DNA from: Marinitenerispora sediminis
GTDB lineage: Bacteria > Actinomycetota > Actinomycetes > Streptosporangiales > Streptosporangiaceae
DNA: 38,035 nucleotides
Direction of reading: 5' to 3'
Assembly (NCBI RefSeq): GCF_003336425.1
Contig: NZ_QEIO01000043.1
Location: 1-38,035 of the forward strand
A program made the position numbers and the translations under genes. Each line of letters opens with the position of its first letter. Positions within the stretch are counted from its first letter, which is position 1. Below are positions 2,545 through 24,908 of this stretch, piece after piece. Under the pieces are notes generated by a model. The model saw only the letters and a list, made by a program, of their open reading frames with translations. It was not told the DNA's origin and ran no database searches.

Positions 2545-3996
2545 ATGAAGCCGGTGCTGGGCTGGAAGCTCTACGGGGACGGCAGCGCTCCGCCGCCCGG
2601 CGAGGTGGTGCGGCCCGACGAGCGGCTGTCCTGGGGGCGGACCGTCGGCCTGGGCGCCCAGCACGTGGTGGCGATGTTCGGCGCCACCTTCGTGTTCCCC
2701 GTGGTCATGGGGCTCGACCCCAACCTCGCCATCATGATGTCCGGCGTCGCCACGATCCTGTTCCTGCTGATCGTCAACGGCCGGGTGCCCAGCTACCTCG
2801 GAACGAGTGCGTCCTTCGTCGGCGCCGTGGCGGCCATCCGGGCCTCCGGCGGGGACACCGCCACCGTCACCGGCGCGATCCTGGTCGCGGGCCTGGTGCT
2901 GGCGGCCAGCGGCCTGGTCATCCACCTGGTGGGCGCGCAGGTGGTCGTGCGGGTGTTCCCGCCGGCGGTCACCGGCGCGGTGGTGATGCTGATCGGCTTC
3001 AACCTGGCGCCCGTGGTCGCGAACAACTACTGGCCCCACGACCAGTGGGTCGGCCTGCTGACCATGGTGTTCGTCGTCCTGGCGACCGTGCTGCTCCGCG
3101 GCTTCCTCGGCCGGCTGGCCGTGCTGCTCGGGCTCGCCTTCGGGTTCGCGCTGTCCTGGGTGCTCGACGCGGTCGCCGGGCCGACGTCCGTTCCGGGGCC
3201 GGAGGCGGGCACGACGGTCTCCGCGCTCCGGGTGGACCTGTCCGCCGTGACCGAGGCGCCGTGGATCGGGCTGCCGGCCTTCCACGCCCCGGAGTTCTCC
3301 ACGTCGGCGATCCTCGTCGCGCTGCCGGCGGTCATCGCGCTCATCGCGGAGAACGCCGGCCACGTCAAGGCCGTCGAGGAGATGACCCGCGAACCCCTCG
3401 ACCCCTACATGGGGCGGGCGATCCTCGCCGACGGCGTGGCGACCGCGATGTCCAGCGCGGTCGGCGGCGCGCCCACCACGACCTACGCGGAGAACATCGG
3501 CGTGATGGCCGCCACCCGGGTCTACTCCACGGCCGCCTACTATGTGGCCGCGATCGTGGCCATCCTCTTCGGGTTTTCCCCGAAGTTCGGCGCGCTCATC
3601 GCCGCGACGCCCGAGGGCGTGTTGGGCGGGATCAGCCTCGTGCTCTACGGGATGATCGGGCTGCTGGGGGCGAAGATCTGGCTGGAGAACCGGGTCGACC
3701 TCGCCAATCCGGTGGTGCTCGTCCCGGTGTCGGCCGGGCTGGTCGCGGGTATCGGCGGCGTACGGCTGGCGATCACCGAGGACTTCGCGATCGAGGGGAT
3801 CGCGCTGGGCACGCTCATCGTCATCGCCGGCTACCACGCCCTGCACCGGCTCGCGCCCGAGCAGCTGCGTCCGCGGGCGACCCCGCCGCCCGCGGCGGGC
3901 GCCGGCCCGGGAGGCACCCCGGTCGGGCGCGCCGAGCCCGGCACGCCCGAGCGGTCCCAGGGCACGGGGGAGGAGGGGCGTCCGCAGTCGACCTGA
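2545..3996 (+). CDS. NCS2 family uracil/xanthine permease
   Basis: A 483-residue polytopic membrane protein of the nucleobase:cation symporter-2 family (UraA/PyrP/XanQ), which imports uracil or xanthine with a proton. It shows the family start GAQHVVAMFGATFVFP (about residues 37-52), the TM8 motif E-N-A-G-H (269-273; Glu and His are the substrate/proton residues in UraA) and T-T-Y-A-E-N-I-G (312-319), which resembles uracil permeases more than xanthine permeases. About 12-14 membrane segments are expected. The last 45 residues are a Gly/Pro/Ala-rich cytoplasmic tail. ATG at 2545 has GGGAGG just upstream. It is the first gene of the operon, 49 nt before the Mo-hydroxylase FAD subunit. That context fits uptake of the pyrimidine or purine the enzyme oxidises. 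The family is secure; uracil as substrate is inferred from motif and context. Confidence 0.93.
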   Translation: MKPVLGWKLYGDGSAPPPGEVVRPDERLSWGRTVGLGAQHVVAMFGATFVFPVVMGLDPNLAIMMSGVATILFLLIVNGRVPSYLGTSASFVGAVAAIRASGGDTATVTGAILVAGLVLAASGLVIHLVGAQVVVRVFPPAVTGAVVMLIGFNLAPVVANNYWPHDQWVGLLTMVFVVLATVLLRGFLGRLAVLLGLAFGFALSWVLDAVAGPTSVPGPEAGTTVSALRVDLSAVTEAPWIGLPAFHAPEFSTSAILVALPAVIALIAENAGHVKAVEEMTREPLDPYMGRAILADGVATAMSSAVGGAPTTTYAENIGVMAATRVYSTAAYYVAAIVAILFGFSPKFGALIAATPEGVLGGISLVLYGMIGLLGAKIWLENRVDLANPVVLVPVSAGLVAGIGGVRLAITEDFAIEGIALGTLIVIAGYHALHRLAPEQLRPRATPPPAAGAGPGGTPVGRAEPGTPERSQGTGEEGRPQST

Positions 3997-4045
3997 CCAC
4001 GGCAGCGGCCGAGCCGGCCCGCCGCCCGCCAGCACGAGGAGCCAT

Positions 4046-4957
4046 GTGAAACCACCGGCCTTCCGCTACCACGCCCCCGCCTCGCTCGCCGAGACGCTCG
4101 CCACGCTGGCCGAGGTCGGGGCGCGCGGCAAGGTGCTGGCCGGCGGGCAGAGCCTGGTCCCGCTGATGAACATGCGGCTTGCCGCCCCCGAGCACATCGT
4201 GGACATCAACGGGGTCGCCGGGCTGGACGACGTGACTGTCGACGCAGGAGGAGTGCGGATCGGCGCGCTGGTCCGGCACGCCCGCCTGGAGGCCGACGCC
4301 GAGGCGGCGGCCGCCGTCCCGCTGCTCCGCCAGGGGCTGCGGCTGGTCGCGCACCCGGTCATCCGCAACCGCGGGACCACCGTCGGCAGCATCGCGCACG
4401 CCGACCCCTCCGCGGAGATGCCGGCCGCGCTCGCGCTGCTCGGCGGCTCCGTGGAGGCGGCCGGCGCGGCCGGGCGGCGCACCGTGCCGGCCGCCGAGTT
4501 CTTCACCGGCCCCATGGAGAGCTGCCTGCGCCCGGACGAGCTGGCTGTGTCCGCCCACTTCCCGCGGCCGGAGCCCGGCACCGGCAGCGCGTTCACCGAG
4601 GTGGCGCGCCGGCACGGCGACTACGCGCTGTGCGGGGTCGCCGCGCTCGTCACCCTGGACGCCGACCTGCGGATCACCGCCGCCCGCGCCGGCTACCTGT
4701 CGGTCTCCCCGACCCCCGCCGTCCTCGACCTCACCGACGCGGTCGCCGGCCGCACTCCCGACACCGCCGACCTCGCCGCCGCCGGCCGGCTCGCCGTCGG
4801 ACGGCTGGAACCGGAGGACGACATCCACGCCACCGCCGAGTACCGCGCCCACCTCGCCGGCGTGCTCACCGTCCGCGCGCTGCGCGCCGCCGCCGAGGAC
4901 GCCCTCGCCCGCGCGACCCGCGATCCCCGTCCCGCCGGCTCCGGGAGCGGCCGATGA
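4046..4957 (+). CDS. Mo-hydroxylase FAD-binding medium subunit (CoxM-like)
   Basis: 303 residues, typical for the FAD subunit of the xanthine dehydrogenase/CO dehydrogenase superfamily (FAD_binding_5 plus CO_deh_flav_C). Visible FAD motifs are A-G-G-Q-S-L at 32-37 and T-V-G-S-I-A-H-A-D-P near residue 112-121. It passes electrons from the 2Fe-2S subunit to an acceptor. The GTG start at 4046 has a GAGGAG ribosome site. Its stop overlaps the next start (ATGA at 4954-4957), so translation of the two subunits is probably coupled. Gene order M-S-L is that of CO dehydrogenase operons, but the large subunit is not the true CO-oxidising form. Substrate is inferred from the neighbouring permease and the downstream barbiturase to be uracil or thymine; a purine or another N-heterocycle is possible. 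Confidence 0.93.
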   Translation: MKPPAFRYHAPASLAETLATLAEVGARGKVLAGGQSLVPLMNMRLAAPEHIVDINGVAGLDDVTVDAGGVRIGALVRHARLEADAEAAAAVPLLRQGLRLVAHPVIRNRGTTVGSIAHADPSAEMPAALALLGGSVEAAGAAGRRTVPAAEFFTGPMESCLRPDELAVSAHFPRPEPGTGSAFTEVARRHGDYALCGVAALVTLDADLRITAARAGYLSVSPTPAVLDLTDAVAGRTPDTADLAAAGRLAVGRLEPEDDIHATAEYRAHLAGVLTVRALRAAAEDALARATRDPRPAGSGSGR

Positions 4958-5490
4958 CCGAACAGACCCACGAGATCCGGCTGCACGTGAACGGCGTCCC
5001 GCACACCGCCACGGTGCCCGCCCGGCGGCTGCTCTCGGACTGCCTGCGCCACGACCTCGGCCTCACCGGCACGCACGTCGGCTGCGAGCACGGGGTGTGC
5101 GGCGCGTGCACCGTGCGCCTCGACGGCCTGCCGGTGCGGTCCTGCCTGATGTTCGCGGTCAGCGCGCAGGGGCACGAGATCACCACGGTCGAGGGCATGG
5201 CCGCCCCCGACGGCACCCCGCACCCGGTCCAGCGCGCGTTCCGCGAGTGCCACGGGCTGCAGTGCGGGTTCTGCACTCCCGGCTTCCTCGCCGTCGTGGC
5301 CGCGTTCCTGGAGGAGAACCCCGACCCCACGGAGGAGCAGGCCCGCGAGGCCGTCGGCGGCAACCTGTGCCGCTGCACCGGCTACCAGAACATCGTCCGC
5401 TCGGTGCTGCGCGCCGCCGAACTGGCTCGCGAGCACCCGGGGGCGGAGCCGCCCGGCGCCGGTGCGGCCGCCGAGGGAGGCCGAGCGTGA
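4954..5490 (+). CDS. Mo-hydroxylase 2Fe-2S small subunit (CoxS-like)
   Basis: 178 residues with both iron-sulfur sites of this family. The plant-ferredoxin-type cluster is C44-x4-C49-x2-C52 with C64, and the C-terminal helical-bundle cluster is C104-x2-C107 with C139-x-C141. These wire the Mo site of the large subunit to the FAD subunit. The frame is open far upstream, but ATG at 4954, overlapping the previous stop, begins the conserved N-terminus (E-I-R-L-H-V-N-G). The C-terminus has an extra 20-residue Gly/Ala/Glu tail. The stop overlaps the GTG start of the large subunit (GTGA, 5487-5490). Confidence 0.95.
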   Translation: MTEQTHEIRLHVNGVPHTATVPARRLLSDCLRHDLGLTGTHVGCEHGVCGACTVRLDGLPVRSCLMFAVSAQGHEITTVEGMAAPDGTPHPVQRAFRECHGLQCGFCTPGFLAVVAAFLEENPDPTEEQAREAVGGNLCRCTGYQNIVRSVLRAAELAREHPGAEPPGAGAAAEGGRA

Positions 5491-7931
5491 CCGGGAAGAT
5501 GTTCGGCGCGCCGATCCCGCGCACCGAGGACGAGCGGCTCGTCGCGGGCCGCGGCCGCTACCTCGACGACCTCGGCGCCGGAGCCTACGCCGCCGCGTTC
5601 GTCCGCAGCCCGCACGCGCACGCGCGCATCCTCGACATCGACGTCGGGGACGCCCTCGACGTGGACGGGCTCGTCGCGGTCTACACCCACGACGACCTCC
5701 GCGGTCCCATGGCCGAGCCGCTGCCGCTGCTTATCCCGCACCCCGCCATCCGCGACGGCCGCACGCCCCACGCGCTGGCCGCCGAGTACGTGCACCACGT
5801 CGGCGAGCCGGTGGCCATGGTGGTGGCGCGCGACCGCTACGTGGCCGAGGACATCGTGGAACGCGTCCGGGTCGACTACGAGGTGCTGCCCGCGGTGGTC
5901 GGCGTGGCGGCGGCCCGCCGGGCCGACCACGTCGTGCACCCGGGCATGTCCGACAACGTCGCGGCCCGCCTCCTGCAGGAGGTCGGCGACGCCCCGGCCG
6001 CGATCGCCGCCGCGCCGCACACCCTGGAGCTCGACCTGGAGATCGAGCGCTCCGCGAGCACCCCCATGGAGGGGCGCGGCGTGTACGCGCGGTGGGACGC
6101 CGCCGACGCGATGCTGCGGATGTACAGCTCCACCCAGACCGCCTCCGGCGTCCGCGCCGCCGTCGCCGCCAAGCTCGAACTCCAGCTCGGCCAGGTCGAG
6201 GTGGTGGTCCCCGACGTGGGCGGCGGCTTCGGCGTCAAGATCGTGCACCCCTGGCCCGAGGAGGTGATGGTTCCGTGGGCCGCCCGGCTGCTCGGCCACG
6301 ACGTGAAGTGGACGGAGGACCGCCGCGAGCACTTCGTGGCCGCCGCGCACGAGCGGGAGCAGCTCCAGCGGGTGCGGGTCGGCTTCGACGACGAGGGCCG
6401 GCTGCTCGGCCTGGACGTGCGGATCTGGCACGACAACGGCGCCTACCTGCCCTACGGGGTGATCGTCCCGCTCGTGACCTCCACCCAGCTGCTCGGTCCG
6501 TACCGGCCCGGGGCCTACCGGGTGGAGTTCGACAGCCTGTACACGACCACGGTGATCGTGACGCCCTACCGCGGCGCCGGCCGCCCGCAGGGCGTCTTCG
6601 CGATGGAGCGCACCATGGACGCCATCGCCGCGCGGCTCGGCCTGGACCGCGCGCGGGTGCGGTCGGTGAACCTCATCCAGCCGGACGAGATGCCCTACGA
6701 CCAGGGGCTGGTGTTCCAGGACGGCCGGCCGCTCATCTACGACTCCGGCGACTACCCGGCCGCGCTCGCCGCCCTCCTCGACCTCGTCGGCTGGGACGAC
6801 TTCCCCGCCCAGCGGGAGCGCGCCCGCGCCGAGGGCCGCCGGATCGGGATCGGGCTGGCCTGCTACGTGGAGGGCACCGGGCCCGGTCCGTACGAGGGCG
6901 GGCACGTGCAGGTGGAGACCAGCGGCCGGGTGCGGGTCGCGACCGGGCTGACCAGCCAGGGGCAGGGCCACCAGACCATCCTGGCGCAGATCGTCGCGGA
7001 CGAACTCGGCGTCCCGATATCCGACATCTCCGTCACCACCGGCGACACCCGCCGGATGCCCTACTCCGTGGGCACCTACGCCTCGCGCGGCGCGGTGATG
7101 AGCGGCAGCGCGGTCGCCCTGGCCGCGCGCCGGCTGCGGGACAAGGCGCTGCGCATCGCCGGCGACGCCCTGGAGGCCGACCCCGACGACCTGGAGATCG
7201 TCGGGGGCCGGGTGCGGGTCAAGGGCAGCCCGGCCTCCGGCATGGACCTCGGCACGGTCGCCGTCCTCGCCAACCCGCTGCGGTACGCGTTCGACGAGGC
7301 GTCCCGCGCCGCCACCCAGTTCGGCGGGCCGGCCGACTTCGACCGCCCGCCGGTCGCCCCCGACGACGCCCCCGGGCTGGAGGGCACCGACTTCTACTCG
7401 CCGCTGCGCTGCACGTTCGCCAGCGGCATGCACGCCGCGATCGTCGAGACCGACCCCGAGACCGCCGAGATCCGGATCCTGCGGTACTGCGTCGTGCACG
7501 ACTGCGGCCGGCTCGTCAACCCGCTCATCGTCGAGGGGCAGATCCACGGGGGAGTGGCCCAGGGCGTCGCCGGCGCGCTCTACGAGCGCATGGCCTACGA
7601 CTCCGACGGGCAGCTGCTCAACGCCTCCTTCATGGACTTCCTCATGCCCTACGCGAGCGAGGTGCCCGCCGTCGAGATCGACCACCTGGAGACCCCCAGC
7701 CCGCTCAACCCCCTGGGCATCAAGGGCGCCGGGGAGGCGGGCGTCATCCCGGGCGCGGCGGTGCTCGCGGCCGCCGTCGAGGACGCCGAGGGCTTCCCGA
7801 TCACCCGGATGCCCATCTCCCCGTCGGAGCTGTTCCACCTGCGCCGCAGGTTCGCCTCCGGCGAGATCCCGCCCCTGCGCGCCCGGCGTCCCGCCGCGCC
7901 CGCGCCGCGCCCGTCCGGACAGGAGAGCTGA
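5487..7931 (+). CDS. Mo-hydroxylase molybdopterin large subunit (form II CoxL-like)
   Basis: 814 residues, the usual length of the catalytic subunit that binds molybdopterin cytosine dinucleotide and hydroxylates the substrate with water-derived oxygen. V-G-G-G-F-G lies at 244-249, and the catalytic Glu is E750 in G-I-K-G-A-G-E. The active-site loop reads Y-R-G-A-G-R at 361-366. Form I CO dehydrogenases have AYxCSFR there, with the Cu-binding Cys, so this is a form II enzyme and CO oxidation is unlikely. The GTG start at 5487 overlaps the small-subunit stop and gives the normal N-terminus (F-G-A-P-I-P-R-T-E-D). The barbiturase 16 kb downstream and the permease upstream suggest uracil/thymine dehydrogenase (uracil to barbiturate); this is inference. 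No coxDEF/xdhC-type maturation gene is in the window. Confidence 0.94.
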   Translation: MTGKMFGAPIPRTEDERLVAGRGRYLDDLGAGAYAAAFVRSPHAHARILDIDVGDALDVDGLVAVYTHDDLRGPMAEPLPLLIPHPAIRDGRTPHALAAEYVHHVGEPVAMVVARDRYVAEDIVERVRVDYEVLPAVVGVAAARRADHVVHPGMSDNVAARLLQEVGDAPAAIAAAPHTLELDLEIERSASTPMEGRGVYARWDAADAMLRMYSSTQTASGVRAAVAAKLELQLGQVEVVVPDVGGGFGVKIVHPWPEEVMVPWAARLLGHDVKWTEDRREHFVAAAHEREQLQRVRVGFDDEGRLLGLDVRIWHDNGAYLPYGVIVPLVTSTQLLGPYRPGAYRVEFDSLYTTTVIVTPYRGAGRPQGVFAMERTMDAIAARLGLDRARVRSVNLIQPDEMPYDQGLVFQDGRPLIYDSGDYPAALAALLDLVGWDDFPAQRERARAEGRRIGIGLACYVEGTGPGPYEGGHVQVETSGRVRVATGLTSQGQGHQTILAQIVADELGVPISDISVTTGDTRRMPYSVGTYASRGAVMSGSAVALAARRLRDKALRIAGDALEADPDDLEIVGGRVRVKGSPASGMDLGTVAVLANPLRYAFDEASRAATQFGGPADFDRPPVAPDDAPGLEGTDFYSPLRCTFASGMHAAIVETDPETAEIRILRYCVVHDCGRLVNPLIVEGQIHGGVAQGVAGALYERMAYDSDGQLLNASFMDFLMPYASEVPAVEIDHLETPSPLNPLGIKGAGEAGVIPGAAVLAAAVEDAEGFPITRMPISPSELFHLRRRFASGEIPPLRARRPAAPAPRPSGQES

Positions 7932-7935
7932 GCAC

Positions 7936-8595
7936 ATGAAGGTGACCGGTACCGCCACCCTGAACGCACCCCCGGCGAAGGTCTGGGCCGCGCTGCTGGA
8001 CCCCGAGGTGCTGGCCCGCATCATCCCGGGGTGCGAGCGGCTGGAGCGCACCGGCGCGGACCGCTACCGCGGCACCGTCACCGCGGGCGTGGCTTCGATC
8101 AAGGGCACCTTCGTCGGCGACGTCGAACTCACCGACCTGGACCCGCCCGCGGGGCTCGTGCTGCGCGCCTCGGGCGCCGGGGCGCCAGGCACGGTGCGCG
8201 CCGACGTCGCGGTGCGGCTCGCCGACCTCGGCGACGGCCGTACGGAGCTCGGCTACGACGCCGACGCCGTGGTGGGCGGCATGGTCGGCGGGGTCGGGCA
8301 GCGCGTCCTGGTCGGCGTCGCCCGGCGCATGGCGCAGGAGTTCTTCGACCGGCTCGGCTCGGAGCTGGCCGGCGGCGCGCCCGCCGCGGCGGAGCCGCGC
8401 CCGCAGGCCGGTGCGGCCGCGCACCCCGAGGGCGCGGCCGCGGTGTCCGGCCGGCCGGATGCCTTCCCGGGCCGGGCGCCCGCGGCCCCGGCCGGCGGTG
8501 CGGGCGAGTTCGTCCGCGGGGCGGTCTTCGGCGCGGTGGTGGCGCTGGCGGGCGTCGCGGCCGGCGTCCTCGCGGGGCGGCGCCGGTGCGGGTGA
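7936..8595 (+). CDS. CoxG-like SRPBCC protein with C-terminal membrane anchor
   Basis: 219 residues. Residues 1-145 match the CoxG (PF06240) START/SRPBCC fold (M-K-V-T-G-T-A-T-L-N-A-P at the start, then I-I-P-G-C-E around 35-40). A long Ala/Pro/Gly linker follows, and then one hydrophobic helix (about 197-213) ending in Arg residues, so the protein is probably anchored to the inner face of the membrane. In CO dehydrogenase systems CoxG recruits the enzyme to the membrane and has been linked to quinone delivery. Here it would let the Mo enzyme feed electrons to the respiratory chain. It starts 4 nt after the large-subunit stop and is the last gene of the operon. Confidence 0.88.
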   Translation: MKVTGTATLNAPPAKVWAALLDPEVLARIIPGCERLERTGADRYRGTVTAGVASIKGTFVGDVELTDLDPPAGLVLRASGAGAPGTVRADVAVRLADLGDGRTELGYDADAVVGGMVGGVGQRVLVGVARRMAQEFFDRLGSELAGGAPAAAEPRPQAGAAAHPEGAAAVSGRPDAFPGRAPAAPAGGAGEFVRGAVFGAVVALAGVAAGVLAGRRRCG

Positions 8596-8681
8596 CCCGT
8601 GCGGCGGGGCGGTGCGGCGTTCGTCACATCGACGCGTCGCGCTTCCGACCAGTGCTGCTACGGAGCGCATCGCGGCGATGC

Positions 8682-8792: not shown

Positions 8793-9374
8793 GTGAACGA
8801 CTCCCCGAAGCTCTCCACCAAGATCATCGTCGCCGGCGGATTCGGCGTCGGAAAGACGACGTTCGTGGGAGCGGTCTCCGAGATTCCCCCCGTACGCACC
8901 GAGGCCGCGGTGACCGCCGCCAGCGCCGGCATCGACGACCTTTCCAAGACCCCGGACAAGACGAGCACGACCGTGGCCATGGACTTCGGCCGCATTTCGC
9001 TTGACGACGACCTCACCCTCTACCTGTTCGGAACACCGGGCCAGCAGCGCTTCTGGTTCATGTGGGACGACCTGGTGCGCGGTGCGCTCGGTGCCGTGAT
9101 CCTCGTCGACACCCGCCGCCTGGAGGACTCCTTCCAGGCGATCGACTACTTCGAGAAGCAGTACCGGCTGCCGTTCCTGATCGCCGTGAACTCGTTCGCC
9201 GACGAGTACCAGTACTCGGCGGACGAACTGCGCGACGCGCTCGACCTCGGCCCCGAGGTTCCGGTCATGCAGTGCGACGCGCGGCAGCGCGAGTCCGTGG
9301 CGCAGGTCCTGATCCGCCTGGTCAAGCACGCCATCGCGGTCGAGGCCCGCCAGCGCCGCCAACTCGTGCACTGA
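8793..9374 (+). CDS. cvnD: CvnD-type small GTPase (conservon D)
   Basis: 193 residues of the actinobacterial conservon GTPase family (MglA/Ras-like). The P-loop G-G-F-G-V-G-K-T-T is at 15-23, switch II G-T-P-G-Q-Q-R-F near 79-86, and N-S-F-A-D (about 134) replaces the NKxD base-binding motif, as is usual in this family. Conservons normally run cvnA (kinase), cvnB (roadblock), cvnC (DUF742), cvnD. Here A-C are absent, so this is an orphan cvnD paired with the flavoprotein downstream. The GTG start at 8793 has GAGGA about 10 nt upstream. Conservon proteins form a membrane-associated G-protein-like signalling complex in Streptomyces; its partner here is unknown. Confidence 0.9.
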   Translation: MNDSPKLSTKIIVAGGFGVGKTTFVGAVSEIPPVRTEAAVTAASAGIDDLSKTPDKTSTTVAMDFGRISLDDDLTLYLFGTPGQQRFWFMWDDLVRGALGAVILVDTRRLEDSFQAIDYFEKQYRLPFLIAVNSFADEYQYSADELRDALDLGPEVPVMQCDARQRESVAQVLIRLVKHAIAVEARQRRQLVH

Positions 9375-9603
9375 GAACGGACGGCCGGCAGCCCGGCCCG
9401 CCTCGGCCGGCCCGCCGAGTGGGCCCGCTCGGGGCGTCGGGATCGGGCGCCCCGGAGCCGGCGGCGCCCGGCCGCGGTGCCGCCGGTCGTGTCGGCCGCA
9501 CCGCCGTTTCGGAACGGACCATGCCGGGAGGTCCGCCCATCGTGCGGCCGTCCCCGGTTGCCACCGCCGGTGTTCCCCTGCGCCAGTGGAAAGCGGACAA
9601 GTC

Positions 9604-10845
9604 ATGCGAAGAGTCCTGATCGTCGGCAGCGGCCAGTCCGGGCTGCAGCTGGCTCTCGGCCTGCTCGACGACGGCTACGACGTCACGGTCGTCTCGGCCC
9701 GCACGCCCGAGGAGATCCGCTCCGGGCGGATCATGTCCACGCAGTGCATGTTCGACCCCGCCCTCCAGCTGGAGCGGGACCTCGGTCTCAACCTGTGGGA
9801 GGACGACGCCCCGAGGATCGAGGGCCTCGGAGTCTCGATCGCCGATCCCCCCGGAACGCGTGCCGTGGACTGGCTGGCTCCCCTGGACCGCTACGCGCAG
9901 TCGGTCGACCAGCGGGTGAAGATGGCGGACTGGCTGGAGAACGTCGATGACGCCGGCGGCCACATCGTCGTCAGCGGCGCCACCGTGTCCGACCTGGAGG
10001 GGTTCACCCGGCTCTACGACCTCGTGGTCGTCGCCGCCGGCAAGGGCGAACTGGCCGAGCTGTTCGACCTCGACCCCGCGCGGACCGTGTTCCACACCCC
10101 GCAGCGCTCCCTCGCCGCCAGCTACGTGCACGGCGTGGGCCCGCGCCCGGAGCACCCGGGCACGGCGGCCGTCCGATGCAACCTGGTCCCTGACGCCGGC
10201 GAGATCTTCGTGATGCCGTCCTACACGTCGAGTGGGCCGTGCGACACCCTGCTCATCGAGGCCGTCCCCGGCGGCCCGCTCGACGTGTTCGACGGGATCC
10301 GGTCGGCGCAGGAGCACCTGGAGCGCTCGCTGGACCTCATGCGCCGCCACACGCCATGGGAGTACGAGCGCTGCCGGGACGCCGAGCTGACCGACGGGCG
10401 CGCCGTGCTCGCCGGGCGGTTCACCCCCGCCGTGCGCGAGCCGGTCGGCCGGCTGCCCGGCGGCGGTCTCGTCCTCGGCATGGCCGACGTCGTGGTCACC
10501 AACGACCCGGTCACCGGGCAGGGCGCCAACTGCGCCGCCAAGTGCGCCGACATCTACCGCCGGGCCATCGTCGCCCACGGAGACCAGCCGTTCGACGAGG
10601 CGTTCATGCGCGCGGTGTTCGAGGAGTACTGGGACGGCGTCGCGCGGCACGTCACCGCGTGGACCACGGCGATGCTCCGCCCGCCCGAGCCGCACGTCCT
10701 GCGGCTGCTGACGGCGGCGGAGAAGCACCCCGAGATCGCGCACCGGTTCGGCAACGGCTTCGCCGCGCCCGAGGACTTCGCCTCCTGGCTGCTCGACCCC
10801 GCCGCCGCCGACGCCTACCTGGCCGAGGTCGGCCGCCGCGGCTAG
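9604..10845 (+). CDS. StyA-like FAD-dependent monooxygenase/oxidoreductase
   Basis: 413 residues. The N-terminal Rossmann FAD motif is G-S-G-Q-S-G at 8-13, and F-D-P-A-L-Q-L-E-R-D-L-G-L-N (about 50-63) and the later G-M-A-D-V-V-V-T-N-D-P-V-T-G-Q-G segment are typical of styrene monooxygenase StyA-like flavoproteins. StyA proper is a two-component epoxidase that gets FADH2 from a reductase (StyB). No reductase is adjacent, so the substrate is unknown. Start chosen at ATG 9604, which begins the Rossmann strand; a GTG at 9586 would add six residues. It follows the CvnD gene by 229 bp on the same strand. Genes of this type are often seen near conservons in actinomycetes (from general knowledge, not checked). 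Confidence 0.82.
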   Translation: MRRVLIVGSGQSGLQLALGLLDDGYDVTVVSARTPEEIRSGRIMSTQCMFDPALQLERDLGLNLWEDDAPRIEGLGVSIADPPGTRAVDWLAPLDRYAQSVDQRVKMADWLENVDDAGGHIVVSGATVSDLEGFTRLYDLVVVAAGKGELAELFDLDPARTVFHTPQRSLAASYVHGVGPRPEHPGTAAVRCNLVPDAGEIFVMPSYTSSGPCDTLLIEAVPGGPLDVFDGIRSAQEHLERSLDLMRRHTPWEYERCRDAELTDGRAVLAGRFTPAVREPVGRLPGGGLVLGMADVVVTNDPVTGQGANCAAKCADIYRRAIVAHGDQPFDEAFMRAVFEEYWDGVARHVTAWTTAMLRPPEPHVLRLLTAAEKHPEIAHRFGNGFAAPEDFASWLLDPAAADAYLAEVGRRG

Positions 10846-10874
10846 CGGCCCGGCGCGGACCGGTACGGGCGGCG

Positions 10875-10896
10875 GCGCAGGGGATCGCGCCTGCGC
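10875..10896 (+). terminator. Hairpin after the StyA-like gene
   Basis: A 7-bp inverted repeat (GCGCAGG ... CCTGCGC, 8-nt loop) lies 29 nt past the stop. There is no U-tract, as is common in actinomycetes. It is a weak candidate in very GC-rich sequence, where chance hairpins are frequent. Confidence 0.35.
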
Positions 10897-10991
10897 GGAC
10901 GGCCGGCCGGCGCCCGGCGGTCCGCGCGCCCGGGGCACGTCGTGCCCCGAATCGTGACGGTCCGGCGGAACCGCCGGCGGCCGGCCGGCGT

Positions 10992-11003
10992 TACCCTGGC
11001 GTG
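10992..11003 (+). promoter_or_regulatory. Leaderless promoter of secA2
   Basis: TACCCT at 10992-10997 is followed by exactly six bases and then GTG at 11004. This TANNNT-N6-GTG layout is the classic signal for a leaderless actinobacterial transcript. It decides the secA2 start, since no Shine-Dalgarno is present. Confidence 0.65.
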
Positions 11004-13313
11004 GTGTTCGGACGAATGGCCGAGAGTGTCCGCCGAGTCCTCGGGAAACCCGGCTCGGTGGACGTGCGGCCCTATACGAAGCTGCTGAAGGCGATCGACG
11101 AGCGGGAGCCGGCGCTGCGTGAGCTGAGCGACGCCGAGCTCACCGAGCGGGCGGCCGAGCTCGGCAACGCCGAGGGCCCCTACGACCGCGCCGACCTCGC
11201 CGAACTGTGCGCGGTCGGCCGGGAGGCCGCGCGGCGGGCGCTCGGCGAGCGCCCGTTCGACGTGCAGCTCGTCGGCGTCATGGCGCTGCTGGACGGCCAC
11301 GTGGCGGAGATGGCCACCGGCGAGGGCAAGACCCTCGCCGGCGCGCTCGCCGCCGCCGGGTTCGCGCTGCGCGGTCGGCGGGTGCACGTGCTCAGCGTCA
11401 ACGACTACCTCGCGCGGCGCGACGCCGAGTGGATGCGCCCCCTCTACGACCTCCTCGGCGTGGCCGTGGCCTGGATCGGCCAGGAGTCCACCCGCGAGGA
11501 GCGCTCCGTCGCCTACAGCGCCGACATCACCTACGCCTCGGTCAGCGAGCTCGGCTTCGACGTGCTGCGCGACCGCCTGGTGACCGACGTCGCCGACCGG
11601 GTGGTGCCCGAGCCCGACGTGGCGCTGATCGACGAGGCCGACTCCGTGCTCGTCGACGAGGCCCGTGTGCCGCTGGTGCTCGCCGGCGCGGCGGAGGCCG
11701 CCGAGGCGGACCTGGAGATGGCCGAGCTCGTCCGGAGCCTGCGCCCCAGGATCCACTACGAGGTCGACGGCGAGGGCCGCAACGTCCAGCTCACCGAGAG
11801 CGGCATCGACCTCGTCGAACGCGAGCTCGGCGGCATCGACCTCTACTCCGAGGACGACACCTCCGTCCTCCCGAGGGTCAACCTCGCGCTGCACGCGCAC
11901 GCCCTGCTGCAGCGCGACGTGCACTACGTCGTGCGCGACGGCGAGGTCCGGCTGATCAACGAGTCGCGCGGCCGCATCGCCCTCCTCCAGCGCTGGCCGG
12001 ACGGCCTCCAGGCGGCGGTCGAGGCCAAGGAGAAGGTCGCGGTCAGCGAGACCGGCGAGATCCTCGACTCCATCACCGTGCAGGCGCTCGTGCTGCGCTA
12101 CCCCACCCGCTGCGGCATGACCGGTACCGCCATGGCGGTCGCCGAGCAGCTGCGCGAGTTCTACGAGCTCGAGGTCGCCGTCGTCCCGCCGAACAAGCCG
12201 TGCGTCCGGGTCGACGAGGCCGACCGGCTGTACGCCACGCCGGAGGACAAGGAGGACGCGCTGATCGAGGAGGTCGCGACCGTGCACGCCACGGGCCGGC
12301 CGATCCTCATCGGTACCCAGGACGTCGCCGAGTCCGAGCGGCTCGCCAAGCGGCTCGCCGACGCCGGCCTGGAGTGCGTCGTCCTCAACGCCAAGAACGA
12401 CGCCGACGAGGCCGCCGTGATCGCCGAGGCGGGCACCTACGGCGCCATCACCGTGTCCACCCAGATGGCCGGGCGCGGCACCGACATCCGGCTCGGCGGC
12501 AGCGACATGGCCGACCGCGAGCGCGTCGTGGAGACCGGCGGGCTCTACGTCATGGGGTACGGCCGCTATCCGAGCAGCCGGCTGGACGACCAGCTGCGCG
12601 GCCGGGCCGGCCGCCAGGGCGACCCCGGCAGCTCGATCTTCTTCGTCAGCGTCGAGGACGACCTGATCGCGGCCAACGCCCCCGAGGCGCGCGGCGCCGA
12701 CGTCACGGCCGACGGTGAGATCACCGACCCCGCCTGGCGCTCCACCGTGAACCACGCCCAGCGGGTGGCCGAGGGTCAGCTGCTGGAGCTGCACCGCAAC
12801 ACCTGGCGCTACAACCAGCTCATCGACGTGCAGCGCGGCGTGGTGCTGGAGCACCGCCAGGCCGTGCTCGCGGAGGGGCTGGGCGACCGGCAGCTCGCCG
12901 TGGACTGCGCCGGGACCCACGCCGACCTGGTCGAGGAGGTCGGTGAGGAGGAGGTCGCACGCGCGGCCAAGCTCATCACGCTCTACCACCTGGACCGCGG
13001 CTGGACCGACCACAACGCCTTCCTCGCCGACCTGCGCGAGGGCATCCACCTGCGCTTCCTCGGCCGCCGCAACCCGCTGGACGAGTTCCACCGCGACGCC
13101 GTTCCGGCCTTCAAGGGCTTCCTGGACGAGGCCCGTGCCCGCGCCGCCGAGACCTTCGAGGCGCTGGAGCCGGTGGACGGCCGGCTGGACGTCGCGGTGG
13201 CCGGCGTGAAGCGCCCGCACACCACGTGGACCTACATGGTCCACGAGCACCCGTTCAGTACCGAGTTCGAGACCGTCGTCGGCCGGGTGCGGGGAGCGCT
13301 GAGCAGGGGTTAG
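11004..13313 (+). CDS. secA2: Accessory preprotein translocase ATPase SecA2
   Basis: 769 residues. The SecA motor motifs are present: Walker A A-T-G-E-G-K-T at 104-110, the DEAD-box-like D-E-A-D at 210-213, the motif Q-M-A-G-R-G-T-D-I near 486-494 and G-R-A-G-R-Q-G-D-P-G-S-S near 533-544. It is shorter than housekeeping SecA1 (about 900-950 aa) and lacks the C-terminal zinc-binding tail, which marks it as SecA2. SecA2 exports a small set of proteins, often without classical signal peptides, with the SecYEG channel. Start chosen at GTG 11004 from the leaderless promoter; GTG 11001 and ATG 11016 are alternatives. The frame is open far upstream, but that part overlaps the flavoprotein gene. No adjacent substrate gene is recognised. 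Confidence 0.93.
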   Translation: MFGRMAESVRRVLGKPGSVDVRPYTKLLKAIDEREPALRELSDAELTERAAELGNAEGPYDRADLAELCAVGREAARRALGERPFDVQLVGVMALLDGHVAEMATGEGKTLAGALAAAGFALRGRRVHVLSVNDYLARRDAEWMRPLYDLLGVAVAWIGQESTREERSVAYSADITYASVSELGFDVLRDRLVTDVADRVVPEPDVALIDEADSVLVDEARVPLVLAGAAEAAEADLEMAELVRSLRPRIHYEVDGEGRNVQLTESGIDLVERELGGIDLYSEDDTSVLPRVNLALHAHALLQRDVHYVVRDGEVRLINESRGRIALLQRWPDGLQAAVEAKEKVAVSETGEILDSITVQALVLRYPTRCGMTGTAMAVAEQLREFYELEVAVVPPNKPCVRVDEADRLYATPEDKEDALIEEVATVHATGRPILIGTQDVAESERLAKRLADAGLECVVLNAKNDADEAAVIAEAGTYGAITVSTQMAGRGTDIRLGGSDMADRERVVETGGLYVMGYGRYPSSRLDDQLRGRAGRQGDPGSSIFFVSVEDDLIAANAPEARGADVTADGEITDPAWRSTVNHAQRVAEGQLLELHRNTWRYNQLIDVQRGVVLEHRQAVLAEGLGDRQLAVDCAGTHADLVEEVGEEEVARAAKLITLYHLDRGWTDHNAFLADLREGIHLRFLGRRNPLDEFHRDAVPAFKGFLDEARARAAETFEALEPVDGRLDVAVAGVKRPHTTWTYMVHEHPFSTEFETVVGRVRGALSRG

Positions 13314-16317: not shown

Positions 16318-16336
16318 CCGCGGCCGGAGCGGCGGC

Positions 16337-17513: not shown

Positions 17514-17515
17514 TG

Positions 17516-19654: not shown

Positions 19655-21537
19655 GCACCGCACCCGTCCCGAGCAGCGTCCGCGACGCCGGCCCCGTCGT
19701 GCTGGAGATCGTGGAAGGGACCCTCGCCTCGGTGGAGCGCGAGGTCGAGACCGCCATCGCCCGCACCTCCCGCTCGCCCATGATCCGCGACGCCCACGAC
19801 TTCCGGGCGGGCATCCACGACCGGCGGCTGCGCAAGCTCACCGGCCGCTCCTACTCCGCGCTGGTGCACCCGGTCGCGCGCGACTTCCCGCTGGAGACCA
19901 TGCGGCCCGGCGACGTGTTCTTCCACAACGACGTCTACGAGTCGGAGGGCGGTATCGGCCACCTGCCCGACCTGTGCGTCACCGTCCCGGTGTTCCACGA
20001 CGACGGGGACGGCCGCGGGCCGCGGGTGGTGGCGTTCGTGCAGGCGTTCGGCCACCACGACGACATCGGCGGGGCCTGCCCCGGGTCGATGCCCTCCGGC
20101 GCCACCTCCGTCTTCGAGGAGGGGCTGATGGTGCCGCCGATCCGGCTGTGGGACCAGGGCGTGCCCAACCGGGCGGCGCTGCGCATCATGACGCGCAACT
20201 CGCGCATGCCGGAGTCGCTGGCGGCCGACCTCGACGCCGAGTGCTCCGCCTGCCTCATGGGCGCCCGGCGGCTGGCGGACCTGTTCCGGCGCTACGGCCG
20301 CGCGACCGTCGAGGCGTGCTTCGACGCGATCCTCGACAAGACGACCGAGACCTACCGGCGCGAGATCCTGGCCAAGATCCCGGACGGCAGCTACGTGTGG
20401 GAGGACTACGCCGAGCACGACGGGGTCGACCCGCCCCGGCTGCACACCCAGCGCATCACCCTCACGAAGCCCCCGGACCGGATCGTCATCGACTTCACCG
20501 GGACCTCGCCGCAGGCCCGCGGGCCGATCAACCACTGCGGCGACTACGCCGACGGCAACTTCCTGAAGAAATGGCTCGCCCCCGTCCTGCGCAACCCCGC
20601 CGACACCCCGGAGCGGATGGCGGAGCTCGACGTCAACGAGGGCGTGGTGCCGCTGATCGAGATGCGGTTCCCCCCCAAGGGCACGCTGCTCACCCCCGTG
20701 TTCCCGGCTCCCACCAACGCCCGCACCTTCGTCATCCTGCGGCTGCTCGGGGTGCTGGCCGGGGTGCTCGCCAAGGCCGTGGACGGCCGGATGCCCGCCG
20801 ACCAGGAGACCATCCGCTACACGGGCGTGCACGGCACGGACGCCGCCGGCGTCCCGTACCTGATGCGCGAGGTGCTCGGCGGCGGGTCGGGCGGCCGGCC
20901 GCACGCGGACGGCGAGGACACCGTCCACATCGTGCCGGACTCCCGCAACCTGCCCACTGAGTTCACCGAGTCGCGGTTCCCGTTCCTCGTGGAGCGGCTC
21001 GGGCTGGCGGTCGACTCGGGCGGACCGGGCCTGCACCGCGGCGGCCTCGGCTACGAGAAGCACATCCGCATGCTGCGCGACGCCCGCTTCATGTCCGTCG
21101 CCGACCGCTCCATCCTCGCCTGCTGGGGCGTGAGGGGCGGCCGGGCCGGCCGGCCGTTCCAGGTCACCATCGACCCCGGCGGTCCGAACGAGCGCGAGAT
21201 GGCGGGACTGGTGGACGGCGAGCCGGTGCGCGCCGGCGAGGTGATCCGCATCCGCACCACCGGAGGCGGCGGCTGGGGAGACCCGCTGGACCGCGACGTC
21301 GAGGCCGTGGTCCGCGACGTGCGTTGCGGCAAAGTGTCCCGGGCAGCCGCGTTTTCGGATTACGGTGTGGTGATCAACGGCCCGACCGACGCCCCCCGGC
21401 ATGATCCCGCCGCCACCGAACGGCAGCGCGCCCGTCTGCGAGCCGAGCGCCCCGCCGACCGCCCCTTCTTCGACCGGGGCCCCGGCTACGCGACGCTGTC
21501 CGGGGGCGCGGCACACGCGGAGGTGGATCGACTGTGA
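19651..21537 (+). CDS. hyuB: Hydantoinase/oxoprolinase subunit B
   Basis: 628 residues of the Hydantoinase_B family, partner of HyuA. The family signatures are F-F-H-N-D-V-Y (about 90-96), F-G-H-H-D-D-I-G-G (about 131-139; His/Asp metal-ligand positions in relatives) and the Gly-rich end R-T-T-G-G-G-G-W-G-D-P (about 537-547). The length is within the usual range of 520-650. Its start overlaps hyuA and its stop overlaps the GTG start of the NmrA-like gene (GTGA at 21534-21537), so three genes are translationally coupled. Confidence 0.93.
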   Translation: MSTAPVPSSVRDAGPVVLEIVEGTLASVEREVETAIARTSRSPMIRDAHDFRAGIHDRRLRKLTGRSYSALVHPVARDFPLETMRPGDVFFHNDVYESEGGIGHLPDLCVTVPVFHDDGDGRGPRVVAFVQAFGHHDDIGGACPGSMPSGATSVFEEGLMVPPIRLWDQGVPNRAALRIMTRNSRMPESLAADLDAECSACLMGARRLADLFRRYGRATVEACFDAILDKTTETYRREILAKIPDGSYVWEDYAEHDGVDPPRLHTQRITLTKPPDRIVIDFTGTSPQARGPINHCGDYADGNFLKKWLAPVLRNPADTPERMAELDVNEGVVPLIEMRFPPKGTLLTPVFPAPTNARTFVILRLLGVLAGVLAKAVDGRMPADQETIRYTGVHGTDAAGVPYLMREVLGGGSGGRPHADGEDTVHIVPDSRNLPTEFTESRFPFLVERLGLAVDSGGPGLHRGGLGYEKHIRMLRDARFMSVADRSILACWGVRGGRAGRPFQVTIDPGGPNEREMAGLVDGEPVRAGEVIRIRTTGGGGWGDPLDRDVEAVVRDVRCGKVSRAAAFSDYGVVINGPTDAPRHDPAATERQRARLRAERPADRPFFDRGPGYATLSGGAAHAEVDRL

Positions 21538-22487
21538 CGGAAGCACGTGTCCTGGTGACGGGCGCCGCGGGCAAGACCGGGCGCGCGGTCATCAGCGCGC
21601 TGCGGCACTCGGGGGTGCCGACCCGCGCGCTGGTGCACCGGCCCGGACAGGTGCGGGTGGCGCGCTCACACGGCGCCGGCGAGGTGGTGGTCGGCGACAT
21701 GCGCGACCGCGCGGTGCTCAAGGAGGCGGCCGACGGCGCCAGCGCCGTGTACCACATCGCCCCCAACATGAGCCCGGACGAGGTGGAGATCGGCGAGACC
21801 CTGATCTCGGCGGCGCGCGCCGCCGGGGTGTGGCGGGTGGTGTACCACTCCGTGCTGCGCCCGCAGGCCGAGGCGATGCCGCACCACCGCGCCAAGCTCA
21901 GGGTCGAGGAGGCGCTGTTCCGCTCCGGCCTGGGCGTCACCGTGCTGCAGCCGGGGCCCTACATGCAGAACTTGCTCCAGCAGGTCGCCGCCGTCCGGGA
22001 CACCGGCCGGCTGGCCGTCCCCTACTCCATCGACGTGCGGTTCGGCATGGTCGACCTGTGGGACGTCGCGGCGGTCGCGGTGCGCTGCGTCACCGAACCG
22101 GGCCCGGCCCGGCGGGGGACCGCGGCCGCCGGCGGCCTCGCCGCGGTGGAGGACCGGGGCGGCGACGACGACCACTCGTTCGCGGTGTACGAACTCGTGG
22201 GGCCGGCCAACGTCTCGGTGCGCCACGCCGCCGGCGCCCTCACCGAGGCGCTCGACCGCCCGGTCCGCCCCGTGGCCGTGCCCCTGGACGACTGGCGCCG
22301 CGACGTGCGGGCCGCCGGCCTGGCCGAGCACATGGTCGACGGCCTGTCGGCGATGTTCGACTACTACGACGTCTACGGACTGCCCGGCAACGGCCGCACC
22401 CTGCGCGGCCTGCTGCGCCGCCCGGGCACCGCCCTGCGCGAGTGCGTCCGCCGGGAGGTGCGCGACCTCGACCCGGTGCTGCGCTGA
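21534..22487 (+). CDS. NmrA-like NAD(P)-binding protein
   Basis: 317 residues, atypical short-chain dehydrogenase fold. The N-terminal V-L-V-T-G-A-A-G-K-T-G motif (about 5-15) binds NAD(P); V-V-Y-H-S-V-L-R (about 104-111) and L-Q-P-G-P-Y-M-Q-N (about 139-147) are usual in NmrA/TMR-like proteins. The Y-x3-K catalytic pair of classical SDRs is not evident, so it may sense redox state or reduce a small substrate. It is coupled to hyuB by a 4-bp overlap. The stop codon lies within a 16-bp tandem duplication (22470-22501). Its role in ureide breakdown is not predictable from sequence. Confidence 0.85.
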   Translation: MTEARVLVTGAAGKTGRAVISALRHSGVPTRALVHRPGQVRVARSHGAGEVVVGDMRDRAVLKEAADGASAVYHIAPNMSPDEVEIGETLISAARAAGVWRVVYHSVLRPQAEAMPHHRAKLRVEEALFRSGLGVTVLQPGPYMQNLLQQVAAVRDTGRLAVPYSIDVRFGMVDLWDVAAVAVRCVTEPGPARRGTAAAGGLAAVEDRGGDDDHSFAVYELVGPANVSVRHAAGALTEALDRPVRPVAVPLDDWRRDVRAAGLAEHMVDGLSAMFDYYDVYGLPGNGRTLRGLLRRPGTALRECVRREVRDLDPVLR

Positions 22488-22511
22488 CCCGGTGCTGCGC
22501 TGACCCGGTGC
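22470..22511. repeat. 16-bp tandem duplication spanning a stop codon
   Basis: The unit GACCCGGTGCTGCGCT occurs at 22470-22485 and 22486-22501, with a 10-base partial third copy at 22502-22511. The last bases of the NmrA-like gene and its TGA stop lie in the array. Change of copy number would not alter the protein, because the first stop remains. Confidence 0.9.
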
Positions 22512-22641
22512 GGCCGGTGCCTCCGGCGGCCGGCCGGTCCACCGGGGCTGGGCGCGCCCGCCCCGCCTGTTCGGCAAGAAGCGGTGAGAACCCGCCGGGC
22601 GTTGGGCAACTGTCGCCCAGGAGGTGTGCGGCGCCGTTCTC

Positions 22642-22647
22642 TACAGT
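22642..22647 (+). promoter_or_regulatory. Possible -10 box before carbamate kinase
   Basis: TACAGT lies in the 236-bp gap between the NmrA-like gene and the carbamate kinase gene. Start of transcription would be near 22654, giving a 5' UTR of about 70 nt. No good -35 is seen. Just upstream, GGGCG ... CGCCC (about 22597-22619) makes a short inverted repeat. This suggests arcC and the ring-opening enzyme can be transcribed separately from hyuAB. Confidence 0.4.
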
Positions 22648-22723
22648 CGGCACCGTCCGCCCGTGCTCACCCGCCCGGCGGCGGCCACCGCGTCCCCCCG
22701 GCCTGGGACGAGAGGAGGGGCGC

Positions 22724-23686
22724 ATGCCCGAGACGCGCCGCGTCCTCGTCGCGCTGGGCGGCAACGCCATGGCCGCCCCCGACGGCAGCGCCCGGCCGGA
22801 GGACCAGCGCGCCGCGATCGAAACCGCCATGGAGCACGTGGCGGACCTGGTCGCCGGCGGCACCGAGGTCGTGCTCACGCATGGCAACGGCCCGCAGGTC
22901 GGCAACCTGCTGGTCAAGAACGAGCTGGCCGCGCACGTCGTTCCGCCGGTGCCCCTGGACTGGTGCGGGGCCCAGACGCAGGGCACCATCGGGTTCACCA
23001 TGGCCGGCGCGCTGGAGGCGGCGCTGCGCCGGCGCGGAGTGGCCCGCCCGGTGGCGGCGGTGGTGACCCGCACGCTGGTCGACCCCGGCGATCCGGCGTT
23101 CGCCGCGCCCAGCAAGCCGGTCGGCCGCTACCTCGACGCCGACCAGGCCGCCCGGTTCATCGCCCTCGGGCAGAACTGGGTGGACCAGGGCGAGCGCGGC
23201 TGGCGGCGCGTCGTGCCCTCGCCGCAGCCCCGGGAGATCCTGGACGCCGCGGCCATCGGTACGCTCGTCGCGGCCGGGGTGACGACCATCGCCGCCGGGG
23301 GCGGCGGGATCCCCGTCGTCCGGGACGCGGCCGGGGCGCTGCGCGGCGTCGAGGCCGTACTGGACAAGGACCGCACGTCCGTGCTGCTCGCCCGCGTGGT
23401 GCGGGCCGACACGCTGCTCATCGCCACCGACGTCCCCAACGCCGTCGTCGGGTTCGGCACCCCCGAGGCGCGGCCGCTCGGCCGGGTGGACGCGGCCGAA
23501 CTCGGCGCGTACCACGCGGCCGGCCACTTCGGCCGGGGCAGTATGGGGCCGAAGGTCGAGGCGGCGCTGAGGTTCGTGGCCGGGGGCGGCGAACGCGCCG
23601 TCATCACCGCGCTGGACCGGATGGCGGCCGGCCTGGCGGGGGAGGCCGGGACGATCGTGGCGAGGAGCGGCCCCGCCATGCGCTGA
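22724..23686 (+). CDS. arcC: Carbamate kinase
   Basis: 320 residues of the amino-acid-kinase fold. Family motifs: V-A-L-G-G-N-A-M at 8-15, [10 protein letters not shown] about 50-59, A-G-G-G-G-I-P-V-V about 190-198, D-K-D about 212 and [10 protein letters not shown] about 272-281. It interconverts carbamoyl phosphate + ADP with carbamate + ATP; in catabolism it makes ATP, with carbamate decaying to CO2 and ammonia. ATG 22724 has GAGGAGGGG upstream. No carbamoyltransferase gene (arcB, allantoin or oxamate type) is nearby, so the carbamoyl phosphate source is unexplained. Between HyuAB and the ring-opening enzyme it points to a carbamoyl-yielding step in ureide breakdown. Confidence 0.93.
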
Positions 23687-23798
23687 CACCGTCCGGCCGC
23701 TGGCCGGCGCGACCGAGTGGACCGGACCGAACGACCCGACGAACCTGACACGGCGCGGGGTTCCCGCGGCGCGACCCGGACGAGAGAGGTGGCGGCAG

Positions 23799-24908
23799 AT
23801 GGCCAGACCGGTTGAGGTCCACAAGGTGGCGATCGAGAGCGTGACGGACGCTTCGGGGCTCGCCCGGCTGATTGACGACGGCGTGTTCGCGGCCGACGAC
23901 GTCCTCGCGGTGATCGGTAAGACCGAGGGCAACGGCGGCGTCAACGACTACACCCGGATCCTCGCCGACCGCGCGTTCCGCGAGGTACTGCTGGAGAGGG
24001 GCAGCCGGGACGCCGCGCAGGTGGCCCAGGTGCCACTGGTGTGGTCGGGAGGTACCGACGGCGTCCTCTCCCCGCACGCGACCGTCTTCGCCCACGCCCC
24101 CGAGGGGCGGTACCGGCCGAGCGACGAGCCGCGCGTGACGGTCGGCGTCGCGATGAGCGAGACCATCCTGCCCGAGGACATCGGCCGCCCGGCGATGGTC
24201 CGCAAGGTCGCCGACGGCGTCCGCAAGGCCATGGAGATCGCGGGGATCAGCGAGGCGGCTGATGTCCACTACGTGCAGACCAAGACCCCGCTGCTGGTGC
24301 TGGAGACCATCAACGACGCGAAGTCGCGCGGGCACGACGTGTTCACCGAGGACACGCTGAAGTCCATGGACGTCTCCAACTCCACGACGGCGCTGGGGAT
24401 CGCCACCGCGCTCGGGGAGATCGAGGAGCCGGCCGCCGAGCAGATCCACGCCGACCTCTCGCTCTACTCCTCGGTGGCCTCGTGCTCGTCGGGCGTCGAG
24501 CTCGATCGGGCGCAGATCGTGGTCGTCGGCAACGCGCGCGGTGTGGGCGGCCGGTTCCGGGTCGGCCACGGGGTCATGCGCGACGCCCTCGACGCCGACG
24601 GCATCTGGGACGCCATCCGGTCGGCGGGCCTTCCGCTCCCCGAGCGCCCGCGCAGCGAGGACCTGGGGCAGCGGCTGGTCAACGTGTTCCTCAAGTGCGA
24701 GGCCGACCCCACCGGACGCGTGCGCGGCCGGCGCAACATCATGCTCGATGACTCCGATGTGCACTGGCACCGCCAGATCAAGGCGACGGTCGGCGGTGTC
24801 ACAGCGGCGGTCACCGGCGACCCCGCGGTGTTCGTCTCGGTCGCGGCGGTGCACCAGGGCCCCTCGGGCGGGGGGCCGGTGGCGGCCATCGTCGACCTCG
24901 GGGACTGA
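23799..24908 (+). CDS. Barbiturase / cyanuric acid amidohydrolase family ring-opening enzyme
   Basis: 369 residues, the standard length of the AtzD/TrzD/barbiturase family (PF09663), whose fold has three similar domains each giving a Lys-Ser pair. All are visible: K41 (G-K-T-E-G-N-G) with S83 (W-S-G-G-T-D-G), K162 (V-Q-T-K-T-P-L-L) with S230/S231 (C-S-S-G-V-E-L), and K299 (L-K-C-E-A-D) with S347 ([10 protein letters not shown]). It hydrolyses barbiturate to ureidomalonate or cyanuric acid to carboxybiuret. The permease and Mo hydroxylase upstream favour barbiturase, but sequence alone does not settle this. Start ATG 23799, last gene of the cluster, 112 nt after arcC. The stop lies in an 18-bp duplication and a hairpin follows. 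Confidence 0.92.

Follow-up and report, generated by a model that had tools for sequence, protein, structure and literature searches.

A conserved actinomycete barbiturase locus in Marinitenerispora sediminis, probably served by an AllFGH-type carbamoyltransferase and a carbamate kinase

What becomes of ureidomalonate in an actinomycete whose barbiturase gene has no recognizable ureidomalonase gene near it? This question is raised by the window analyzed here, the whole stretch of 38,035 nucleotides that makes up contig C354 (bases 1-38035) in the 6.01-Mb genome of Marinitenerispora sediminis. An initial annotation had described a split locus for oxidative pyrimidine catabolism, with an NCS2 permease, a form II molybdenum (Mo) hydroxylase and a CoxG protein in one half, HyuAB, an NmrA-like protein, carbamate kinase (CK) and a barbiturase-family enzyme in the other, about 9 kb between them, and no separate ureidomalonase. 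Profile matches and coordinates placed all of these genes on one strand, and the distance from CoxG to HyuA measured 8.9 kb. As described in the available portions of PMC4051656 and PMC3758960, the oxidative pathway of Rhodococcus (Soong et al.) consists of uracil/thymine dehydrogenase, barbiturase, and ureidomalonase. In a scan made without a ureidomalonase reference sequence, no amidase-family protein was found among the window proteins covered, so that no ureidomalonase candidate was recognized there, as the initial annotation had said. A ureidomalonase within the 9-kb gap was considered and none was recognized, the gap being occupied by a block around SecA2. We suggest that an AllFGH-type carbamoyltransferase, which the initial annotation overlooked, and the CK encoded next to the barbiturase probably take the place of ureidomalonase.

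In relatives, a PucR gene precedes the permease gene, accompanied by divergent genes for FdrA (AllF), AllG, and often AllH. In M. sediminis, AllF, AllG, and AllH were found at one place on a different contig, C399. Among 150 genomes of the family Streptosporangiaceae, 93 of which encode barbiturase, FdrA was present in 88 of the 93 and in 6 of the 57 others; in five of these six no copy exceeds 52% identity, and that of the sixth, G139, reaches 68%. Because the genome searches carried only the top candidates of an initial screen through to scoring, absences from these counts and those below are not proof. Class-wide (296 genomes), AllG was found in 61/63 barbiturase genomes versus 11/233 others. 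This set omits four genomes that lack AllG and have low PF09663 scores of 290 to 439 bits, their enzymes being known by score alone; they were picked after the scores were known, and without the omission the counts are 61/67 versus 11/229. The set that was kept includes G171 (a fragment, 29 bits) and G342 (split in two pieces). Outside the family, AllG accompanied barbiturase in 48 of 49 genomes, and it was present in 32 of 34 named barbiturase genomes, a hand-picked subset of 80 loci. In phylogenetic trees, the 22 barbiturase-linked FdrA rows and the 22 AllG rows each fell in a clade with 100/99 support; both clades also hold the barbiturase-less G139, beside a barbiturase-linked genome. The E. 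coli proteins AllF, AllG, and AllK lie on long branches outside the barbiturase-linked clades (39, 44, and 41% identity), and the seven other actinomycete FdrA copies read, besides G139, adjoin or lie near a CK of another clade. On the genome counts together with the trees, we rejected the idea that AllFGH is a chance neighbor.

The barbiturase-linked CK clade (at least 61% identity) was detected in 74 of the 93 barbiturase genomes and in 1 of the 57 others, and its gene adjoins that of barbiturase in 74/74; the next CK copies, outside the clade, have 49% identity or less. The tree took in 18 of the 22 barbiturase-linked rows, which grouped in one clade with 100/99 support. The CK in the window scored 347 bits with TIGR00746 (cut-off 358) and 307 bits with the subfamily model NF009007 (cut-off 266).

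According to the accessible text of PMC11326118 and PMC9843812, AllFGH of E. coli produces oxamate and carbamoyl phosphate from oxalurate, and the same operon encodes AllK, a CK. Ureidomalonate is oxalurate with one additional CH2. Given this chemistry and this likeness, the simplest reading is that barbiturase-linked AllFGH would yield malonamate and carbamoyl phosphate. The best explanation, and one that we consider probable, is a single oxidative pyrimidine locus that would work as follows. The NCS2 permease would import uracil, which CoxM-S-L, attached to the membrane through CoxG, would hydroxylate to barbiturate. Barbiturase would open the ring to give ureidomalonate, AllF-AllG-AllH would move its carbamoyl group to phosphate, leaving malonamate, and CK would turn the carbamoyl phosphate into ATP, ammonia, and CO2. 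An amidase and CoA-linked enzymes, present in some relatives, could carry malonamate through malonate to malonyl-CoA. Genes, families, order, linkage, co-occurrence, and phylogeny are read from sequence, and every substrate, above all ureidomalonate for AllFGH, is a deduction. On balance, we also incline to the broader view that actinomycetes widely run such an energy-conserving pathway, with a barbiturase-dedicated AllFGH clade and a dedicated CK, in which ureidomalonase and urea would not be needed.

These counts and trees also bear on the classical route, in which ureidomalonase would release malonate and urea, urease would finish the degradation, and AllFGH and CK would be co-regulated neighbors serving purine-derived oxalurate. 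M. sediminis encodes urease, so a ureidomalonase/urea route is possible; an argument for the carbamoyl route from a urease-negative genome was tried and failed for the same reason. The ureidomalonase step is the one described in what was available of PMC3758960, and oxalurate is the E. coli AllFGH substrate given in the portion of PMC11326118 available. Against this, AllG and FdrA track barbiturase across family and class, the linked CK adjoins barbiturase in every genome that has both, and the barbiturase-linked FdrA, AllG, and CK clades stand apart from the other actinomycete copies read and from E. coli. We therefore regard the classical route as unlikely.

The ring-opening enzyme groups with barbiturase rather than with cyanuric acid hydrolase. 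Its best solved relative is the barbiturase 5hwe (568 bits), compared with 321 bits for the best solved cyanuric acid hydrolase. Asn194 stands where the aligned cyanuric acid hydrolases have Arg, and a column count found it kept in 80/80 relatives. The available text of PMC3758960 gives Asn, His, Lys, Val, and Ser/Ala as the barbiturase signature; the His and Lys are present in DVHWHRQIK and the Val-Ala in an 11-residue segment. The motif SGGxExQGPxGGGP, given for cyanuric acid hydrolases in the part of PMC9118981 available, is absent from the window enzyme and was found in 0/80 relatives. Barbiturases reportedly have Gln at Arg188 in the numbering of PMC4051656. The NCBIfam AtzD equivalog model also scored above its cut-off for the window enzyme, so this model does not separate barbiturase from AtzD, and its name alone misleads. 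By these residues and by the scores against solved enzymes, the predicted activity is that of a barbiturase (group VI, AtzD/Bar family), as the initial annotation had called it, and an ordinary cyanuric acid hydrolase was rejected. The closest barbiturases include those of Nocardiopsis ansamitocini (89%), Murinocardiopsis (88%), Halopolyspora (87%), and Streptomonospora (86%).

Upstream, the three Cox subunits have flavin adenine dinucleotide (FAD), [2Fe-2S], and Mo cofactor domains and a YRGAGR-type loop, the features of a form II Mo hydroxylase. The loop reads TPYRGAGRPQ in all 22 barbiturase-linked CoxL copies that cover it (22/24 matches); the other two matches are cut second copies (G010 and G039) that end before the loop. 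We infer from the gene company that uracil is the substrate. The enzyme might instead be a carbon monoxide (CO) dehydrogenase or act on another heterocycle or a purine, the neighborhood then being a general nucleobase cluster. The NCBIfam model NF040766, named for aerobic CO dehydrogenase, scored 1489 bits on CoxL (cut-off 950), and solved CO dehydrogenases are the next relatives, at 378 bits and below. Among solved enzymes, the top two matches to CoxL are 6-hydroxypseudooxynicotine dehydrogenase (455 bits) and quinoline 2-oxidoreductase (448 bits), both of which work on N-heterocycles. Form I CO dehydrogenase has a CSFR active-site loop with a Cu-binding Cys; CoxL lacks this cysteine loop and has YRGAGR instead in the 22 barbiturase-linked copies, and a CO dehydrogenase identity was rejected on this loop. 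Another substrate is also opposed by Actinomadura macra, where AllG, a cytosine-deaminase-like gene (on the other strand; 229 bits, below the model cut-off), an NCS2 permease of the same type, a nitrilase-family amidase, a CoA transferase, a carboxyl transferase, and CK precede barbiturase. We consider a CO dehydrogenase, or an enzyme serving another ring, an improbable identity for the Mo hydroxylase. The A. macra neighborhood fits an input of cytosine or uracil and an output from malonate to malonyl-CoA, and the Halopolyspora locus likewise has a carboxyl transferase and a CoA transferase. For the permease, the best curated models were RutG (382 bits), uracil permease (278 bits), and the xanthine permease PbuX (163 bits), all below their equivalog cut-offs. 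The C-terminal linker and hydrophobic helix predicted for CoxG are compatible with a tail anchor; the coupling to the quinone pool that the initial annotation proposed for such an anchor is hypothetical.

We further asked whether the two halves belong together. The initial annotation had suggested comparing relatives for both blocks, and their co-occurrence proved to be nearly without exception rather than random: a CoxL orthologue was present in 92/93 family genomes with barbiturase and 0/57 without, and HyuB in 88/93 and 0/57 (the CoxL set leaves out G102, at 46% identity). The Fisher values of 5e-41 and 5e-36 exaggerate the strength of the association, since they treat genomes with shared ancestry as independent. 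Of the 91 genomes in which both barbiturase and CoxL could be located, 63 have the two on the same contig and 57 within 60 kb of each other; a partial CoxL row from G049 was left out of this distance count. In 18 family spans, gene order was identical, with other genes interspersed: NCS2, CoxM, CoxL, CoxG, HyuAB (HyuA and HyuB formed one cluster in this count), and barbiturase occurred in 18/18, CoxS and PucR in 17 each, and CK in 16. Ten genomes from five other families (one of them, G195, read in two pieces whose middle was not fetched) all had PucR, CoxM, CoxS, CoxL, CoxG, FdrA, AllG, and barbiturase; HyuA and HyuB were present in 9/9, CK in 9, NCS2 at its usual place in 7, AllH in 7, and NmrA in 4. 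Because the 18 spans and these 10 genomes were chosen for having key genes on a shared contig, they do not sample gene order at random. In 9 of the other-family genomes the two halves form one continuous run, and in G336 PucR through barbiturase take up about 16 kb. Rearranged versions were also found: an Embleya plasmid has the whole gene set, and Halopolyspora has the permease, Cox, HyuAB, NmrA, and barbiturase genes within about 16 kb.

Taken together, gene order and distribution indicate that the window is most of one conserved actinomycete locus, with a linkage that is not due to chance. The association that the initial annotation proposed thus holds, and what it called a split is, to judge from these genomes, a lineage-specific interruption by the SecA2 block, which fills the space between CoxG and HyuA (Table 1). 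A CvnD-like GTPase gene and SecA2 also lie between CoxG and HyuA in G023, G010, G062, G146, L005 (Streptomonospora), and G007. The SecA2 is of mycobacterial type, and it and the small GTPase-like protein are found inside the pyrimidine locus in near relatives too; in the M. sediminis window (8793-13313), a StyA-like flavoprotein separates the GTPase-like gene from SecA2.

Table 1. Coordinates of the features in the window (C354) and of the AllFGH region on contig C399
Feature	Contig	Coordinates	Strand	Profile match
NCS2 nucleobase permease	C354	2545..3996	+	PF00860, 257.5 bits
CoxM-type FAD subunit, Mo hydroxylase	C354	4046..4957	+	PF00941, PF03450
CoxS-type [2Fe-2S] subunit	C354	4954..5490	+	PF01799, PF00111
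CoxL-type molybdopterin subunit, form II loop; candidate uracil dehydrogenase catalytic subunit	C354	5487..7931	+	
CoxG: SRPBCC-type domain, Pro/Ala linker, C-terminal hydrophobic stretch	C354	7936..8595	+	PF06240, 93.6 bits
Interrupting block, outside the pathway	C354	8793..17336	+	
GTPase-like open reading frame (in interrupting block)	C354	8793-9374	+	
StyA-like flavoprotein (in interrupting block)	C354	9586-10845	+	
SecA2 (in interrupting block)	C354	frame to 13313	+	TIGR04221, 1077 bits (cut-off 725)
Sensor histidine kinase (in interrupting block)	C354	14273-15676	+	
Response regulator (in interrupting block)	C354	15601-16317	+	
HyuA, hydantoinase/oxoprolinase family	C354	17516..19654	+	
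HyuB, hydantoinase/oxoprolinase family	C354	19651..21537	+	
NmrA-like NAD(P)-binding protein	C354	21534..22487	+	
CK, barbiturase-linked clade	C354	about 22724..23686, start codon uncertain	+	
Barbiturase (predicted), ring-opening amidohydrolase	C354	23799..24908	+	PF09663, 493 bits
Beta-lactamase-family protein, downstream of barbiturase	C354	26562-27803	-	PF00144, 236 bits
PucR	C399	2674-4302	-	
AllH	C399	about 4475-5476		PF11392, 89 bits (above cut-off)
FdrA (AllF)	C399	to 9168		NF004760, 376 bits (below cut-off 433)
AllG	C399	10216-11643		PF06545, 316 bits (above cut-off)

Two further loci were observed in other actinomycetes. Plasmid pRZP2 of Rhodococcus sp. ZPP (L304) carries XdhC/CoxI-PucR-NCS2-CoxMSL-CoxG-HyuAB-NmrA plus an amidase and a CoA transferase, and the first half plus HyuAB can therefore travel alone. 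A second kind of barbiturase locus was seen in Nocardioides sp. T2.26MG-1 (L078, 4846-11116), with a different Mo hydroxylase (CoxL 31% identity), NCS2, and barbiturase; HyuAB, CK, and AllFGH were absent from the 21 kb read, and AllG and HyuB lie together on another contig of that genome.

The distribution and order of the genes place HyuAB in the locus, and HyuB was found in 32 of the 34 named barbiturase genomes (those without it are Marinactinospora and Sinosporangium album). The HyuAB family comprises ATP-using lactam and hydantoin openers, and among solved proteins HyuA matches N-methylhydantoinase best (472 bits). Together with the co-occurrence of HyuB and barbiturase given above, this could mean that HyuAB handles a fraction of the flux by opening a ring or cleaving an amide, which would add to the proposed pathway and not oppose it; our guesses are that HyuAB opens 5-methylbarbiturate derived from thymine or hydrolyzes malonamate. 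Such a step is only a tentative possibility, since G004 and G100 have barbiturase, CoxL, and FdrA and no HyuB at the cut-off, and the Rhodococcus plasmid has HyuAB without barbiturase or CK in the stretch read.

Several observations weigh against the carbamoyl phosphate pathway as proposed here. In M. sediminis, AllFGH lies on a contig other than that of the window, and its PucR gene is flanked not by NCS2 but by a gene that we read from its sequence as hemC, so either the locus is split here or the assembly hides the link. AllG was not found in Halopolyspora algeriensis and Marinactinospora thermotolerans among the named genomes, and Halopolyspora retains Cox, HyuAB, and barbiturase all the same. 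The CK clade is missing from 19 of the 93 barbiturase genomes, of which 14 have only a distant copy (≤49%) and 5 have none at the cut-off. No Cox genes were found within 10 kb of the A. macra stretch. On pRZP2, barbiturase and CK were absent from the 41.9 kb read and AllG from the whole plasmid. HyuAB is among the most conserved proteins of the locus and yet has no needed step in the scheme. The urease gene, the CO dehydrogenase scores of CoxL, and the shared ancestry that the Fisher values ignore, all given above, belong here as well. Separately, we note that M. thermotolerans (L009) keeps barbiturase, with neither AllG nor HyuB found in the genome, and so offers a natural knock-out for the fate of ureidomalonate.

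In the open-licence literature, we found no paper that pairs barbiturase with CK or carbamoyl phosphate (the original Rhodococcus work lay outside this scope) and, in the text available, no gene named for the Mo dehydrogenase or for the step after barbiturase; the available parts of PMC12625717 and PMC11326118 do not mention barbiturase or any barbitur- term. Most subscription journals were outside the search, and novelty in print is therefore not certain. The genes described here are offered as candidates for the complete oxidative breakdown of uracil, the Mo dehydrogenase and the post-barbiturase step among them. Barbiturase was present in 93 of the 150 family genomes, in contrast to PMC3758960, where the pathway is described as rare on the basis of a survey of all genomes available at the time. 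If the proposed pathway is correct, the release of pyrimidine nitrogen would bring a gain of ATP, and the recently solved AllFGH transcarbamylase family would have a second substrate besides oxalurate.

The proposed system shares parts with several known ones. In the Rut pathway of E. coli, the ring is cleaved by a flavin-dependent reaction; RutG is the best-scoring model for the permease, and the window proteins that were scanned include no enzyme of that pathway. The AtzD/TrzD cyanuric acid hydrolases belong to the same family, PF09663, and differ in their product, biuret, and in specificity residues. With the oxidative pathway of Rhodococcus, the locus shares the barbiturase group and has a Mo hydroxylase and a permease suited to the earlier steps, whereas the partners here are AllFGH and, mostly, CK instead of a recognizable ureidomalonase. 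Closest in its logic is allFGHK of E. coli, an oxamic transcarbamylase with a catabolic CK: the same four families occur in one genome and carbamoyl phosphate would likewise be turned into ATP, but the actinomycete proteins form separate clades at the low identities given above and are joined to barbiturase and a Mo hydroxylase rather than to allantoin genes.

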